A stretch of 64,000 bases of DNA, taken from positions 248,001 to 312,000 of the forward strand of contig NZ_JARXLA010000003.1 of assembly GCF_029872155.1 (NCBI RefSeq). Reading direction: 5' to 3'. Positions 15,966-23,143 of the stretch are shown piece after piece (positions within the stretch are counted from its first letter, which is position 1; each line of letters begins with the position of its first letter). A program made the position numbers and the translations under genes. The notes under the pieces were generated by a model, which worked only from the letters and a program-made list of their open reading frames with translations, did no database searches and was not told where the DNA came from. Source of the stretch: Hyphomicrobium sp. D-2. GTDB taxonomy: Bacteria; Pseudomonadota; Alphaproteobacteria; Rhizobiales; Hyphomicrobiaceae.

Positions 15966-16363
15966 AATTGCCGGGGCATGGCTTGGCGCTTCCTGGCGCG
16001 CCAGGCCCCAGCCATCACGTAGCTGCACACCGCAATGCGTGTGAAAAGCTCAATCATATAGACGATATCGTTTGGCGATATAATGTTAATCCGTCAGTGG
16101 ACCGTGTTTAATTTGCGACGCTAGTGAGCACATCTCGCTGGCGCTTACTGAACGTCCCTCCCTGATCTGCGCGAATCGTTGATGCTGAGCCGTGCGCAGA
16201 CGAATAAAGGCCGCTTCATGATGCGCCGTAACACTTATTCAAAAAGTTGTTTCCGTATCGCGCCCAGCTAGCGCGGCGAAGCCGTCGCTCACAAACACGA
16301 CGGCCAAAAAAATCAAATTCAAGCTGAATACAACGCATGCTGATGTTTCAAGAGGATCTTGAT
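15966..16363 (+). other. Intergenic region before the autotransporter, with a perfect palindrome
   Basis: About 400 bases with no gene. A perfect 14-base palindrome (CCTGGCGCGCCAGG, 15992-16005) lies 27 bases past the response-regulator stop inside GC-rich sequence. It may act as a transcription stop or a protein site. The part from about 16060 on is AT-richer (for example TTTGGCGATATAATG at 16072-16086) and should contain the autotransporter promoter. No confident -35/-10 pair can be named. Confidence 0.4.
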
Positions 16364-18505
16364 ATGGCGCGGCCATACCATGCGCGTTGTTGCGCGATTT
16401 TGATGCTCACTTTGTTTGCCGTATTGCAGGCTTCCGATGCACAAGCGCAGCGAGTAGTGGCCAATGGCATCGCTCTCACTGCCACAGGCAATTATAACAC
16501 GTCGGCGAATTACGACGCCGGAATTGCGCTGTGGGCGTTGAATGGCGGTTCTATCGTGACTACCGGCGCCATAACGGTGACGACGTCCGGTATCAACGGG
16601 CACGGCGCGGAGGCCGAGTTGAATGGAACCATCACGATCAACCAGCCCGGCTCCACGATTACGACATCGGGGAGTGGTGGCTACGGTCTTGTTACGGATG
16701 GAGGGCAAATATTTGCGGACTCGCTGGCGATCCGCATTGAGGGCACAGGTTCTTTCGGTGCCATAGCCTCCGGTACGGGCTCTTTCATCTCGTTGACCAA
16801 TACGGAAATCACTACGACGAACGGTAGTGAAGGCATCCGCGCTGTCGCCGGGGGCGAGATCACAGTCGAAAACGTGATAATCCACACTGCGGGTGCGAGC
16901 GCCTACGGTATTGTTGGCAATGACGGACGGGTTACGATCGGCACTGGCGTCGAGGTCTACACGCAGGGGGCGGGCGCCATTGGATTGTTTGCACTTGGCG
17001 GCCAGCTAGAGACGCAAGCGGTAACGGTCAACACTGAGGGGACTGGGGCTTATGGCGTCATGGCGAACTTCTCAGGTGGGCTTGTCTCCCTTGGAGACGG
17101 ATCGTCAATAACGACGCAGTCCGATAATGCGCATGGCCTCTATGCGATCCAGCGCGGCGAGATCAACACCGGGGCCGTGTCTGTCACCACGAACGGCAAT
17201 AGCGCACATGGCGCCTATTCGAACGGCGTCGGCTCGCTCGTCACGATCGACGCCGGCTCCACCATCGAAACGTTGGGAGCCACCGCGCACGGTTTGTTCG
17301 CGGGGGACACTGGGGCAGTCAGCGCCTCAGGCGCGAGTGTCACCACTGCTGGCGGCGGCTCGCACGGCCTGTATGCACTCAGCGGCGGGCAGGTCACCGC
17401 GGGAGGCGTCAGCGTATCGACAGGAGGCGACTCCTCGTATGGCGCTTTGGCCTCTGGAGCCATCTCACTTGTCTCGATCGGTAGCGGATCGCAAATCACT
17501 ACCGCAGGCGTGGGCGCAATAGGGCTTTCGGCGCAGGATGGCGGTGAGATCAATGCTCAGAACGCAACCGTCACGACGTCGGGCGCTAATGCCGCTGCGA
17601 TTGGTATCAACGGCGGATCATCGATCTCGATATCGAACAGTACCGTGACCGCATTGGGAAGCGGCTCGGCTGGCGTTTCGTCTGTCTCAGGAAACAACGG
17701 CGTCACGATAACCGGCAGTTCTGTGAACGCGGCAGATGGTGCCGGCTTCGACATTGCGGACGGCCAGCTTAGTGCGACACTAACAAACGCAACCGTCTCT
17801 GGTGGTGACGAACTCTTGAATGTGAGCAGCACCGGCGTGCTGGATATCTATGCAGCCAGATCAACGCTTACGGGTCGCACTGTAACGGCGGCCGGTGGCA
17901 CAGCACAGTTGAACCTGCTGGGTGCCTCGGTGTGGAACATAACTGGCGATTCAAATCTTACGCTGTTGATCAATCAGGCCGGCAGCCTGGCGCAATTCAC
18001 CCCGCCCGGTTCGAGTGCGGGACCGTTCAAGACGCTGACGGTGAACGACTACCTTGGCCTTGGCGGCACGCTTGGTATCAACACCCATCTTGGCGCCGAT
18101 GGATCGCCTTCCGATAGGCTTATCATTGACGGTGGCAACGGGCTCGGATCATCATTACTCAGTGTCAACAATGTCGGTGGTGGAGGTGACCTGACAACAC
18201 TTGACGGCATTCTTGTCGTCGACACGATCAACAGTGCAACAGCTCCAGGCCTGTTCACACTCGCCGCGCCGGTTATCGCTGGCCCGTACGAATACTCGCT
18301 CTATCGCGGCGGTGAAAATGGCGCCAACCCTGACAACTGGTATCTGCGCTCCGATCTGGATTGTGCACTGATCCGTCTGCAGCGGTTTGTAACGGTGGCG
18401 GCGGCGATGATGCATCCCCGACTGGCGGCAGGAAACGTCGCTCTACGCCGCTGTTCCGGCGATGACGCTGCTGTATGGCCGCTTGATGCTCGACACGCTG
18501 CATGA
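16364..18505 (+). CDS. Autotransporter passenger domain, frame broken before the barrel
   Basis: 713 residues from ATG 16364, which has AGAGGA seven bases upstream; an ATG 27 bases earlier lacks this. A signal peptide (LMLTLFAVLQASDAQAQ) leads into about 400 residues of degenerate repeats rich in Gly/Thr/Ser/Ala, such as GAHGLYAL-type turns and VTTSG strands, the usual signature of a beta-helix passenger. A pertactin-like junction region (about 520-680) ends with SLYRGGENGANPDNWYLRS. After LDC at about 18364 the frame reads improbable sequence. The expected continuation, DPSAAVCNGGGGDDAS and then IPDWRQETSLYAAVPAM, lies in the other two forward frames. As sequenced, the passenger therefore stops without its barrel. 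Role if intact: surface-exposed or secreted protein, target unknown. Confidence 0.85.
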   Translation: MARPYHARCCAILMLTLFAVLQASDAQAQRVVANGIALTATGNYNTSANYDAGIALWALNGGSIVTTGAITVTTSGINGHGAEAELNGTITINQPGSTITTSGSGGYGLVTDGGQIFADSLAIRIEGTGSFGAIASGTGSFISLTNTEITTTNGSEGIRAVAGGEITVENVIIHTAGASAYGIVGNDGRVTIGTGVEVYTQGAGAIGLFALGGQLETQAVTVNTEGTGAYGVMANFSGGLVSLGDGSSITTQSDNAHGLYAIQRGEINTGAVSVTTNGNSAHGAYSNGVGSLVTIDAGSTIETLGATAHGLFAGDTGAVSASGASVTTAGGGSHGLYALSGGQVTAGGVSVSTGGDSSYGALASGAISLVSIGSGSQITTAGVGAIGLSAQDGGEINAQNATVTTSGANAAAIGINGGSSISISNSTVTALGSGSAGVSSVSGNNGVTITGSSVNAADGAGFDIADGQLSATLTNATVSGGDELLNVSSTGVLDIYAARSTLTGRTVTAAGGTAQLNLLGASVWNITGDSNLTLLINQAGSLAQFTPPGSSAGPFKTLTVNDYLGLGGTLGINTHLGADGSPSDRLIIDGGNGLGSSLLSVNNVGGGGDLTTLDGILVVDTINSATAPGLFTLAAPVIAGPYEYSLYRGGENGANPDNWYLRSDLDCALIRLQRFVTVAAAMMHPRLAAGNVALRRCSGDDAAVWPLDARHAA

Positions 18506-19406
18506 GCGTCGCGGTACAGCCGTCAGCGCCTACGCAGAAGGCGCACCGAACGCAGCCTGGGCGCGTGTCATCGGTCAGCATGGTGATCGGGATGGCGGTA
18601 AGGGCGGCATCTACGGCGCCGGCCCGAAATACGACTATGACTTCTGGGCCTTCCAGGGCGGCATGGACCTCTACCGCGACGGCGATGTCGGAACATCACG
18701 CAATCACGCCGGTGCGTTCTTCGCTATCGGCCATGGCTCCGGCGATGTTCAGCACATCGGCGATGGCAAAGCGGGTGAGAACAGCTTCATGGCCTACAGC
18801 TGGGGCGCCTACTGGACCCACTACACGCCAGAAAATGCTTACGTCGACGCGCTGCTGTTAGGATCGTGGTACGATATTGATGCCAAGTCCAACCGCATCC
18901 CGAAGATGAAAACAGATGGCGGCGCGTTCGGAGCGTCTCTGGAAGGTGGCTATCCGGTTTACTCCGGTCCCGGCGGCTTCAGCATCGAACCGCAGGCGCA
19001 GCTCGCCTATCAGACAGTCAACCTCAACAACGGATCGGATGTCGCCGCGCAGGTGCACTTCGACAATGTCAACTCGCTGGTGGGCCGTGTGGGTGTGCGC
19101 TTCGCGCAGGACTTCGGCACACCGACCTGGCTGACGGGTGAACCATCTACCTTCACCGCCTGGGTGCGGCCGAACTTCTGGTACGAGTTCCTCGGCGATC
19201 CGAAGACGAAGTTTTCATCCGCCACCGGTTTCATCCCGTTCGCGGCCGACATGGGCGGCACGACGTTCGAGATCAACACCGGCTTCAGCACCGACATTGG
19301 CGATGGCACCGCGATCTATGCCAATGCATCGTACCTCGTCGGCATCGGCGAACACGCCGACGGCAACGCCTACGACGGCAAGCTCGGCGTCAAGGTTGCG
19401 TGGTGA
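18462..19406 (+). CDS. Autotransporter beta-barrel (translocator) domain, separated by frameshift
   Basis: 314 residues from the first ATG, but the conserved sequence begins about 12 codons earlier (IPDWRQETSLYAAVPAM), directly after an in-frame TGA. That shows the ATG is internal to a once longer gene. The C-terminal barrel is typical: MTLLYGRLMLDTLHERRG linker helix, WARVIGQHGD, YDYDFWAFQGGMDLYRDG, YVDALLLGSWYD, AFGASLEGGYPV, RVGVRFAQDF and the terminal GKLGVKVAW ending in an aromatic residue. It inserts in the outer membrane and exports the passenger. Without correction of the frame it has no signal peptide and could not function. The paralogue at 63901 ends almost identically. Confidence 0.85.
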   Translation: MTLLYGRLMLDTLHERRGTAVSAYAEGAPNAAWARVIGQHGDRDGGKGGIYGAGPKYDYDFWAFQGGMDLYRDGDVGTSRNHAGAFFAIGHGSGDVQHIGDGKAGENSFMAYSWGAYWTHYTPENAYVDALLLGSWYDIDAKSNRIPKMKTDGGAFGASLEGGYPVYSGPGGFSIEPQAQLAYQTVNLNNGSDVAAQVHFDNVNSLVGRVGVRFAQDFGTPTWLTGEPSTFTAWVRPNFWYEFLGDPKTKFSSATGFIPFAADMGGTTFEINTGFSTDIGDGTAIYANASYLVGIGEHADGNAYDGKLGVKVAW

Positions 19407-19665: not shown

Positions 19666-19740
19666 TGGCTGGGGCGCCAGGATCTGAACCTGGGAATGGC
19701 GGAATCAAAATCCACTGCCTTACCACTTGGCTACGTCCCA
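19666..19740 (-). tRNA. tRNA-Gln (anticodon TTG)
   Basis: 75 bases including encoded CCA. Cloverleaf on the minus strand: acceptor TGGGACG/CGCCCCA, D-arm GCC/GGC, anticodon stem GTGGA/TCCGC with loop TTTTGAT (anticodon TTG), T-stem CCAGG/CCTGG with loop TTCAGAT, discriminator G. The fifth acceptor pair is an A-C mismatch, where most tRNA-Gln genes have G-C. Confidence 0.92.
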
Positions 19741-20004: not shown

Positions 20005-20082
20005 CGGAGCGTAGCGCAGCCACGGTAGCGCACTTGCTTCGGGAGCAAGGGGTCGGGAGTTCGAATCTCCCCGCTCCGACCA
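20005..20082 (+). tRNA. tRNA-Pro (anticodon CGG)
   Basis: 78 bases with encoded CCA. Acceptor CGGAGCG/CGCTCCG is perfect. The anticodon stem CTTGC/GCAAG holds loop TTCGGGA, giving anticodon CGG. The T-arm is GGGAG-TTCGAAT-CTCCC. Discriminator A. No integrase gene or direct-repeat partner of the 3' end lies nearby. Confidence 0.95.
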
Positions 20083-20310: not shown

Positions 20311-20754
20311 TTATTGGGCGTTGTGGGGGTGAATTCCGGCCGTTTCGATGCCGTAGTTGGCTTCGCAGCCCTTCTGTTCCAGGCTTGCGTTCACCGCCGC
20401 CGCTTCGGCCTTGGCTTCATTATACTGGGCAAGAGCCGGCACACCCTGATCCGTTGAGCCCGTCAGGCGTGCCCACGCGCTCACAACGGTTTGGGGCAGT
20501 TCCTGCATCTGCTGCATTGCTTTGGCGGGAAGTTCGTTGAGCTGGGTCTGCAGGCTAACCCTGCGTTCGGTCAGCTCGCGGCAACCCAACCCCTGATCTT
20601 GGGCACTCAAAACATATGAGCCATCTGTCTGATAGCCAGCCCGGGGTGCTCCGCTGAGGTCATGCATGGCAGCGCATCCGGCACCGCCAATGGTCAGCGC
20701 ACCGACCACGCACAGCTTGCCCACAGTTCGGATGAAGAGCCACGGCATTGGCAT
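20311..20754 (-). CDS. Small predicted lipoprotein of unknown function
   Basis: 147 residues from ATG 20754, which has GGGGGA ten bases upstream. A GTG at 20772 in the same frame is the alternative. The N-terminus has a positively charged start, a hydrophobic core and a lipobox ending GGAGC, so the mature protein should be lipid-anchored. The rest is hydrophilic and probably helical, with segments ELTERRVSLQTQLNELPAK and AEAAAVNASLEQKG, and two further cysteines. I do not recognise a family. It is isolated between tRNA-Pro and the APS kinase gene and points the same way as the latter, but 150 bases separate them. Confidence 0.6.
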   Translation of the reverse strand: MPMPWLFIRTVGKLCVVGALTIGGAGCAAMHDLSGAPRAGYQTDGSYVLSAQDQGLGCRELTERRVSLQTQLNELPAKAMQQMQELPQTVVSAWARLTGSTDQGVPALAQYNEAKAEAAAVNASLEQKGCEANYGIETAGIHPHNAQ

Positions 20755-20907
20755 CAAATTCAGATCCCCCACACAGGAGGAAATTTATGCACGCTGCGCC
20801 GCAAAAACTATTGGTAGTCCGAATAATCCTATGAACGTTGCCAGCCAGCAACGCCGAGCCATCCGACAGATGTTGTAGTTCTGCGGAGGTTCAAGCTGAG
20901 ATTGCGG

Positions 20908-22332
20908 TCAATCGCGCGCTGCAATCATTCCGCGGGCAGCAAGCAGGGAAATGACTTTTTGGGCGAGTTCATCTGCCGGCGCAGTGGCGGTTTCGAGAAT
21001 GAGGTCCGGATTTTCCGGCGCTTCATAGGGTGAATCGATACCGGTGAAGTTTGGCAACTTGCCGGCGCGGCACTTGGCATAGAGCCCTTTGGGGTCGCGC
21101 TGCTCACACACAGCCAGCGGGGCGGTCACGTGGATTTCGATGAATTCGCCGTCATCAAGCAGACCGCGCACCGCTGCGCGTTCAGCCCGAAATGGTGAGA
21201 TGAACGAGCACAGCACAATCAAGCCGGCGTCGACAAACAGGCGCGCCACTTCTCCGACGCGACGGATGTTTTCAACCCGATCGGCGGCGGTGAAGCCGAG
21301 ATCCTTGTTGAGGCCGTGGCGGACATTGTCTCCGTCGAGCAGATAGGTGTGGCGGCCGTTCGCGGCCAGGGCGCTTTCCACCAGATTGGCGATGGTGGAT
21401 TTGCCTGCGCCGGAGATGCCTGTGAACCAGACGATGCAGGGCCGCTGCGCCTTCATGGACGACCGTAGCGGCTTGGCGACGCTCAGTTCCTGCCAATGGA
21501 CATTCTGCCCACGGCGAAGCGCGAAATCGACCGTGCCAGCGGCCACCGGCTCGTCTGTCTGTTCGCCCCAGATTTCAAAGCGCGCCGCGCCGAGCGAGTC
21601 GGGCGCCAGACGAATTGCGGGATGGGTTGCAACGGTGCAAACGCCGATCTCGCCATGGCTGAGGGTGCGTGCGGGCAGCCGCTGAAGTGTTTCGGTGTCG
21701 AGCCGGTGCTTGATCGCCGTGATCGTCGCCGGTTGCTCAAGCGATCCAATCCGCAAGCGGTATTCGCGACCGGGCAGCAATTCCTCACGCGAGGTCAGGC
21801 AGGCAACATGAGCAGCGAAGTGCTCGCTCGGCGGCGAGGGATCGAGCTGCGATGTATGCAGCGGCGATGGCCGGGGGAGCGTGACGAGATAGTTTGCCAG
21901 CGCCTGATCGCGACGTAAAATATGCGCCCCGGAAACGGCAGCCGCCTTATCTGAAGCGTTATCGATCGGAATGATGGCCGCTGAAACGAAATTCAGCCGC
22001 CGCATCATCGTGTCGAACCCACGCGTCAGGGTATCAAACGCGTTCGGCTGCAGATCATCGGATGAACTGCGTAAAACCGCGAGCACAAGATGCGACACGC
22101 CGGCTGCGTGCGCGAGCATTGCGATTTTGCGCACTTCCGCTGTCAGGCCAACGCGGGTGGTGGTGACAATGATCAGGGCATCTGAGGCGAACGGGGCCAC
22201 CAGATGCGCGCCTGCGCTTTCGATCTGGATGGTCAGCCGCAGCGTCGCTTCGCCATCGACATTGGCGGCATCAAGAACGCCAACCGCTAACGACCGACGT
22301 TCGATTGTCAGCGCAGATCTATCGCTGTGCAT
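20908..22332 (-). CDS. cysC: APS kinase (CysC) fused to a vestigial, GTPase-less CysN
   Basis: 474 residues. The C-terminal 180 are a complete adenylylsulfate kinase: P-loop GISGAGKST (about 306), [34 protein letters not shown] and [15 protein letters not shown]. It converts APS to PAPS in the cytosol. The upstream half is CysN-like. Residues about 182-295 match the third CysN domain ([34 protein letters not shown]) and the CysN-CysC joint. Residues 1-145 align loosely with the CysN G domain ([32 protein letters not shown]), but the P-loop, DTPGH and NKMD motifs are gone. The second domain is also missing, so the protein is some 150-170 residues shorter than CysNC. No cysD is nearby. Retained PAPS synthesis is likely; sulfurylase activity is not. 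Confidence 0.9.
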
Positions 22333-22510: not shown

Positions 22511-23143
22511 TTATTTCGCGGCCTGCTGAGGGAACACGTAGATATCGAGGATGGCCTGCGCCAGTGCGTGATGCGCTAATTCGACAAAGCCATACTGTGT
22601 CGAATTCACATAGAAATTTACGTCACCCCGGTTGCGCAGCAGGTTGTCGGGCTGGAAGCCGCTCAGCGTGGCAATGGTCATGCCCTTGGCGCGCGCTGTT
22701 TGCACGGATTTCAAAATGTTGACCGACTGACCCGAGCTGGAGATCGCGATCAGCATATCGCCGGGCTGGCCCTGGATCTTGAGCTGCTCGGAATAGACGT
22801 TGGCGTAGCCGAAATCGTTGCTCATCGCGGTGATGGCGGCGGGATCGTTGAGCGAAAGGGCGCGGATGCCGCCGTTCTTCACAAACTCGATCGCCAGATG
22901 ACTGGCCACCGCGGCGCTGCCGCCGTTGCCGATCAGGATCAGCTTGTTGCCGGCGTCCTGCGTTTTGCGCGCGGTCTCGGCAACCCATTCGAAACCGCGC
23001 TGCAGCTCGATAGGCTTGCCTTCGGCGTCACTGACGCGCATCGATGACAGGACTTGGCTGAGTTCTTCGAAATAGGCGGAAACTGGATTGGATGGGGTTG
23101 CCTCGGCGACGCCTTTCAACACTCTCATTGCCTCCAGGTTCAT
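22511..23143 (-). CDS. SIS-domain sugar-phosphate isomerase, GmhA-like
   Basis: 210 residues with one SIS domain: the phosphosugar-binding LILIGNGGSAAVASHLAIEF, the ALSLNDPAAITAMSNDFGY segment, GDMLIAISSSGQSVNILKSV, and a C-terminal ELAHHALAQAILD helix with the histidines expected in sedoheptulose-7-phosphate isomerase relatives. GmhA makes the precursor of LPS or S-layer heptose, and DiaA-like members regulate replication instead. The sequence fits the isomerase side better, but a specific substrate is not certain. It lies upstream of the APS kinase fusion on the same strand with a 178-base gap. Together they hint at a surface-sugar modification locus. Confidence 0.82.
   Translation of the reverse strand: MNLEAMRVLKGVAEATPSNPVSAYFEELSQVLSSMRVSDAEGKPIELQRGFEWVAETARKTQDAGNKLILIGNGGSAAVASHLAIEFVKNGGIRALSLNDPAAITAMSNDFGYANVYSEQLKIQGQPGDMLIAISSSGQSVNILKSVQTARAKGMTIATLSGFQPDNLLRNRGDVNFYVNSTQYGFVELAHHALAQAILDIYVFPQQAAK

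Follow-up and report, generated by a model that had tools for sequence, protein, structure and literature searches.

We consider it reasonably probable that a gene of Hyphomicrobium sp. D-2, here designated cysN'-cysC, encodes a working APS kinase that descends from a CysNC fusion, has lost its partner gene cysD, and carries what is left of its CysN half as a pseudoGTPase platform acting in cis, with the product PAPS most likely going to sulfation. The gene was analyzed within a contiguous stretch of 64,000 nucleotides (the window), and its features and adjoining genes are listed in Table 1.

The reading frame starts with ATG and contains 474 codons with no internal stop, in agreement with the clean open frame described in the initial annotation. 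In Pfam searches with E-values up to 1, APS_kinase (PF01583) matched residues 297-446 with 229.9 bits (cut-off 21.1) and GTP-eEF1A_C matched residues 171-240 with 40.5 bits (cut-off 27); weaker P-loop families also matched the kinase part, and neither a GTP_EFTU nor a domain II model matched the 474-aa protein. The score with the APS kinase model TIGR00455 was 247.7 bits (cut-off 138.7), and the kinase motifs GISGAGKST and DGDNVRHG are present. By these family cut-offs and intact motifs, the window protein is classed as an APS kinase and would be expected to have kinase activity. It scored 59.7 bits with the three-domain CysN model TIGR02034 (cut-off 336.1) and 376.5 bits with the CysNC/NodQ model NF004035 (cut-off 715), falling below both. 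Domain III is joined directly to the G-domain remnant because domain II is missing; the alignment with full CysNC bears out the earlier statement that the second CysN domain is absent. The third domain and the CysN-CysC joint had been called well conserved, and at the joint L272, R273, R274, N277, and W280 are indeed invariant in 8/8 aligned short forms.

Table 1. Features of the cysN'-cysC gene and its two neighbors, in window coordinates.
Feature	Position	Strand	Basis
cysN'-cysC, predicted 474-aa APS kinase with degenerate CysN N-terminal part	20908..22332	-	ORF, Pfam, NCBIfam; 6/8 genus genomes
Predicted pseudoGTPase remnant, residues 35-152, about the second half of the CysN G domain	21877..22230	-	hhalign 99.7%, E 2.3e-26
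CysN domain III, residues 166-273, EF1A_C-like barrel	21514..21837	-	PF22594 40.5 bits
APS kinase catalytic domain, residues 297-446	20995..21444	-	PF01583 1.7e-68; TIGR00455
Kinase P-loop GISGAGKST, residues 305-313	21394..21420	-	Sequence, alignment
SIS-domain protein, upstream gene, GmhA-like	22511..23143	-	SIS_2 54.2 bits
153-aa protein, lipoprotein-like N-terminus (by eye), downstream gene	20311..20772	-	Synteny

Profile comparison confirmed, at the level of sequence, that the first ~165 residues are derived from CysN. A profile of the N-terminal part of 11 short forms was compared by hhalign with the G domains of 33 CysN sequences, namely those of the 92 full rows in which a simple motif rule found the G-domain end. 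The two matched with a probability of 99.7 and an E-value of 2.3e-26 over 119 columns, from near DTPGH through to where the CysN G domain ends, and the controls gave probabilities of 2.7 (reversed profile) and 0.0-0.3 (five column shuffles). The N-terminal parts of the window protein and its closest relative (G039) reached 86.2 on their own, and the subsets (these two; the six genus members; G085; G186; G195 with G159) ranged from 86 to 99. The possibility that the N-terminal part is unrelated to CysN, which the initial annotation had named as fatal to its reading, was ruled out by this comparison, with 99.7 for the match and at most 2.7 for the reversed and shuffled controls.

In the alignment with full CysNC, the window protein has lost the P-loop (GSVDDGKSTL) and the stretch from switch I to DTPGH, it reads LRSS in place of NKMD, and it has nothing of domain II. 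It accordingly lacks the first half of the G domain, and the motifs that we take to be G1 (P-loop), G3 (DTPGH), and G4 (NKMD) are all three lost from its CysN half. An intact nucleotide site in the N-terminal part, the other finding said to speak against a vestigial CysN, was not seen in this motif alignment. The G domain had been described as only faintly recognizable; the loss of P-loop, DTPGH, and NKMD stands, but the remnant can be recognized as the second half of a G domain. Assignment as a pseudoGTPase is thus based on G-domain homology and motif loss, by profile and alignment, and the nucleotide-free state is a prediction from sequence.

Some relatives show states in between. G034 reads AAGADKSTL at the position of GSVDDGKSTL and NMHD at that of NKMD, and it has WYAGPTLLAHLD in place of the WYDGPTLLEHLE present in the full-length protein of the genus; a decayed P-loop-like segment of this kind, such as GADKSTL of G034, persists in some relatives. 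The idea that the missing CysN parts are hidden in another frame was examined by tblastn of CysNC residues 1-330 against the 12 short-form loci (E up to 1) and rejected. Matches occurred at 10/12 loci, with none in G036 (L144) and G186 (L195), and neither the P-loop-to-switch part nor domain II was seen beside the short genes, except for a part of domain II in G265. An extra match at L197 4-714 looks by eye like another translation GTPase.

An AlphaFold2 model of the window protein was built from 45 sequences (mean pLDDT 73.9); the first ~40 residues seem to be misplaced in the input alignment. Domain III and the kinase were mostly confident, with kinase pLDDT mostly above 84 and dips near residues 331-350 and at the C end; confidence was moderate for residues 50-125 and below 50 for residues 1-48 and 126-163. 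Foldseek with this model retrieved APS kinases first and CysN (1zun_B) at rank 37. VIA-align superposed model residues 41-270 on residues 112-434 of 1zun_B with Z 17.6 and an rmsd of 2.9 over 201 residues. The half G domain and domain III are therefore modeled together in the CysN arrangement, a matter of consistency and no proof, because the input alignment contained CysN relatives and the training data probably contained CysN structures.

A match was found in 53/103 genomes of the family, and the kinase is present in 8/8 genomes of the genus. Six of the latter carry the short form of 469-490 aa (G000, G039, G034, G033, G036, G038), and the other two (G035, G037) carry a full 630-aa CysNC behind cysD. 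Outside the genus, short forms were found in G085 (two copies), G195, G159, and G186, and a further one of 442 aa in G265 (L197 5527-6855) has lost most of the G domain, while its kinase, its domain III, and part of domain II remain. Shortened forms occur in at least four other genera of the order, and 11/12 short forms, across four genera, retain a similar core made up of domain III and the latter half of the G domain. Of 397 genomes searched in the order, 323 had a match, as did 214 of the 385 searched in the class; the number of short forms among the matches listed is a lower bound, and seven CysNC fragments at contig edges (L010, L013, L042, L046, L047, L152, L196) were excluded from it. 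The short form is a small recurring class and no private accident of one genome: it is present in 6/8 genomes of the genus and in four other genera.

Several related loci may be recorded here. Frames of 368-589 aa with a kinase domain in G757, G589, G848, G593, G842, G443, G458, and G447 are possible short forms or contig ends. The two copies of G085 (L146, L147) are 39% identical to the window protein, and each lies near a NusG-like gene (by eye). The short form of G265 lies near genes resembling sugar-nucleotide genes. Stand-alone CysC proteins of 213-276 aa occur in 12 family genomes (L214-L225; genera g10, g14) on long branches, with no cysD upstream in the stretches read.

The short and full forms differ in their linkage to cysD. 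Of 121 full CysNC rows, 74 had 900 or more bases of upstream flank, and cysD lies directly upstream in 74/74 (60 passed the distance rule, and in 14 the cysD frame overlaps an over-long first-start ORF), whereas it was found upstream of 0/11 short forms checked. Because the rows are related, they do not represent as many independent events. The short form L147 was left out of the count since its upstream flank is too short; the rest of its 12-kb stretch showed no cysD frame. No cysD was found upstream of the window gene or in its flanks, as had been noted before, and the search for intact cysND elsewhere, then proposed, was successful: the window genome has an intact cysH-cysD-cysN set on contig 2, apart from the contig of the short form. 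Sat (PF01747) had no match in this genome.

CysD and a full CysN elsewhere in the genome were found in G000, G033, G034, G038, G039, and G085, none of which had a Sat match, and Sat was found in G195, G159, G186, and G265, where neither CysD nor a full CysN was detected. Another source of APS is therefore present in 10/11 short-form genomes, cysHDN in six and Sat in four. In the remaining one, G036 (L144; assembly 96% complete), no CysD, CysH-type PAPS_reduct, full CysN, or Sat was found. Three of the four Sat genomes (G195, G159, G186) keep the G remnant, and G265 keeps only its last stretch. Since no CysD was found in the Sat genomes and the remnant is kept in 3/4, a role through CysD is unlikely there.

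How often the short form arose was addressed with trees. The first tree sampled 22 of the 77 named full rows. In a quick tree that included the stand-alone CysC, 11/12 short forms fell in a poorly resolved region outside the main full-length group, a placement that carries a long-branch warning. A more careful tree was made from domain III and the kinase after removal of the 12 stand-alone CysC and 21 full rows; L038, at a contig edge, stayed among the full rows for the trees. In it the 12 short forms fell in about five places, and among the bootstraps 0/200 had one change and 4-5 changes were typical, with the starred branches forcing only 2. An AU test on one short-form clade gave p values of 0.12 (12 rows) and 0.365 (11 rows), so that a single clade was not rejected. 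By BLAST, each of 11/11 remnants had a full CysN as its best match once its own lineage was set aside, which leans toward separate origins, and we tentatively lean to the view that the short form arose more than once. In the careful tree the six genus members stand, with weak support (81/46), beside the clade that contains the G035 and G037 full CysNC, making decay of a CysNC in place within the genus plausible.

Selection on the remnant was estimated with a home-made Nei-Gojobori count on six short-form pairs, taking residues 1-163 as the pseudo-G part. Between the window protein and G039, there are 39 synonymous and 8 non-synonymous changes in this part, for a dN/dS of 0.061, compared with 0.022 for domain III and 0.042 for the kinase. 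The values for pseudo-G part, domain III, and kinase were 0.25, 0.095, and 0.154 for G033-G034; 0.37, 0.18, and 0.07 for G036-G038; and 0.25, 0.13, and 0.055 for the two G085 copies. G034-G036 gave 0.37 for residues 1-163, and the pair of the window protein with G034 was saturated there; in the wider pairs most synonymous distances approach or exceed 1, which makes their ratios rough. For comparison, the intact G domain of full CysNC (G035-G037) gave 0.26 on few changes (18 and 15). On these codon counts the dead G domain is clearly constrained, with dN/dS of 0.06-0.37 consistent with purifying selection. Selection of this kind on the dead half suggests a possible helper for the working kinase half. 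A structural or regulatory role had been proposed for the remnant; the dN/dS range of 0.061-0.37 and the occurrence in 6/8 genus genomes favor it, and from them we infer the role itself.

We propose that the ancestor was an ordinary CysNC fusion working with CysD. The partner cysD would have been lost while APS was supplied by another enzyme, namely the CysDN of cysHDN in the window genome and Sat in four genomes. Given this loss and the other APS source, the GTP site and domain II would have been free to go, an order of events that we infer. The present protein would catalyze APS + ATP -> PAPS, and its N-terminal half would be a retired ATP-sulfurylase GTPase. The part of the G domain that packs on domain III, its second half, has been kept under purifying selection, most likely as a nucleotide-free pseudoGTPase platform in cis that holds the kinase dimer or lid active and soluble. 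The retained pseudoGTPase accessory thus probably acts in cis on the fused kinase.

One alternative is that the remnant has no job and is slowly eroding, held back only insofar as a misfolded N-terminal part would damage the kinase to which it is fused. Its changing faster than the kinase in 4/4 close pairs fits such erosion, as do the different amounts of the CysN part lost in different lineages and the stand-alone CysC of related genera, which do without a remnant. However, between the window protein and G039 the dN/dS of the remnant over 163 codons is close to that of the kinase, and a similar core has persisted in nearly all short forms of four genera, though a simple deletion would be easy. 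We regard this explanation as unlikely. Outright decay of the gene, or an assembly error, might be suspected from the loss of domains in one half of the protein; given that the frame is open in the separately assembled genomes of six genus species, with conserved kinase residues and signs of purifying selection, it is extremely improbable.

A further reading, to which we give little credence, is that the remnant and domain III bind a separate ATP sulfurylase (CysDN or Sat), which hands its APS to the kinase. It would account for the retention of domain III and, in the model, of the G-to-domain III arrangement, and an APS source is at hand in 10/11 short-form genomes. The equilibrium of APS formation is described as unfavorable, which would make a hand-off useful (PMC13213808). 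However, six genomes have CysDN as the source and four have Sat, which is unrelated to it, and a conserved docking surface would need to fit two different partners.

The window gene is flanked, by eye, by a set of genes for a Yej-type peptide transporter on one side and an autotransporter on the other. The SIS gene is upstream of the short form in 6/6 genus genomes that have it, with relatives 73-99.5% identical. The SIS protein scored 93.8 with TIGR00441 (cut-off 209.45) and fell well below every listed phosphoheptose isomerase cut-off. The initial annotation took this gene as a sugar isomerase in support of glycan sulfation; its position is conserved, but with these scores it would be only a candidate for such an activity. 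Homologues of the 153-aa protein, which had no Pfam match at E 0.001, are on the same side in 5/5 other short-form genomes of the genus.

Two overlapping frames on the plus strand, 16337-18505 and 18462-19406, resemble by eye an autotransporter passenger (722 aa) and barrel (314 aa), and this putative autotransporter (16337-19406) seems split by a frame change near 18500; in G039, only the last 251 bases align. Genes for tRNA-Gln (ttg; 19666-19740, minus strand) and tRNA-Pro (cgg; 20005-20082, plus strand) lie at lower coordinates than the SIS-cysN'C set.

In G033, G036, G038, G195, and G159, the short form lies among sugar-nucleotide-like genes, judged mostly from gene starts by eye and for some confirmed by family models. 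Judged from gene starts, the short forms of G033, G036, and G038 and the full cysD-cysNC of G035 have similar neighbors, namely a sugar epimerase of the NAD-dependent type and, in part, an aldolase together with a gene resembling Kbl (Pfam or NCBIfam for some). Short and full forms therefore occupy related neighborhoods. In the window genome and in G039, the stretches read showed no such epimerase, aldolase, or Kbl-like neighbors. The short forms of G195 and G159 adjoin and follow CysQ (PAP phosphatase; above the cut-off of TIGR01331).

The CysH of the window genome passed the APS reductase model TIGR02055 (247.0, cut-off 235.3) and failed the PAPS reductase model TIGR02057 (133.5, cut-off 254.2); it also scored above NF002537, which is named phosphoadenylyl-sulfate reductase (251.7, cut-off 154). 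It carries CC and CxxC pairs, which we take to be a mark of APS reductases. Judging from these scores, PAPS is probably not needed for cysteine in the window genome. Sulfotransfer_3 had one match in each of the 8/8 genus genomes. The sulfotransferase search proposed in the initial annotation found one in the window genome among the two families searched, on another contig than cysN'-cysC. Because CysH fits the APS reductase class and 8/8 genomes have a Sulfotransfer_3 match, PAPS would most likely be used for sulfation rather than cysteine synthesis, and sulfation of a surface molecule is plausible. The case for the earlier idea of glycan sulfation is circumstantial: the sugar-nucleotide-like neighbors in five relatives and CysQ in two are favorable, but the neighbors in the window differ and the sulfotransferase lies elsewhere.

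The window protein resembles CysNC/NodQ (NF004035) in the domain order of its remaining parts, in the joint, and in homology along the remnant, domain III, and the kinase. It differs in that the GTP motifs, domain II, and an adjoining cysD are missing, half of the G domain is left, and its length is 474 aa compared with 630 aa in the full CysNC of the same genus. Stand-alone CysC (213-276 aa, 12 examples) belongs to the same kinase family and has no CysN-derived part. The APS kinases of Thiobacillus denitrificans (3cr8) and Entamoeba histolytica (EhAPSK) likewise have a dead ATP sulfurylase module at the N-terminus; theirs is of the Sat type, unrelated to CysN, whereas that of the window protein would be a pseudoGTPase of the EF1A lineage. 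The Sat-fold domain PF01747 had no match in the window protein.

EhAPSK offers the best precedent for an accessory acting in cis: according to one study (PMC13213808), the enzyme without its inactive Sat-like domain has a kcat lowered by ~100-fold and aggregates, with a caution by the authors on the construct, and the single mutants E90A and Y133A show a 21- to 60-fold drop. The same study states that the inactive Sat-like domain of the T. denitrificans enzyme is thought to stabilize a hexamer, and that APS kinase has been suggested as the rate-limiting step of PAPS synthesis (PMC13213808). The Penicillium ATP sulfurylase (1i2d, 1m8p) also has an inactive fusion half, which is there described as regulating the other half (PMC13213808); it is a mirror image, with a dead kinase and a working sulfurylase, whereas the kinase motifs of the window protein are intact. 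In titles and abstract openings of the open-licence literature, we found no degenerate CysN on CysC, which is weak evidence of absence.

Two earlier studies portray CysN as a translation GTPase of the EF1A type that was recruited into sulfur metabolism (PMC1780047, PMC4342817). The short form would be a further step after that recruitment, in which the GTPase was switched off and whittled down, with its core kept by selection in another enzyme. Since there are relatives at several stages of loss, and full CysNC in the same genus, the question of why fusions keep dead halves becomes testable here, as does the convergence of unrelated dead sulfurylase modules (Sat-type and CysN-type) on helping APS kinase. 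More tentatively, in several alphaproteobacterial lineages, perhaps independently, a nucleotide-free pseudoGTPase may have become a fixed, built-in kinase activator that replaces GTP-driven control of sulfate activation. Entamoeba and Thiobacillus APS kinases, with their dead Sat domain, would then have a convergent counterpart of the CysN type.
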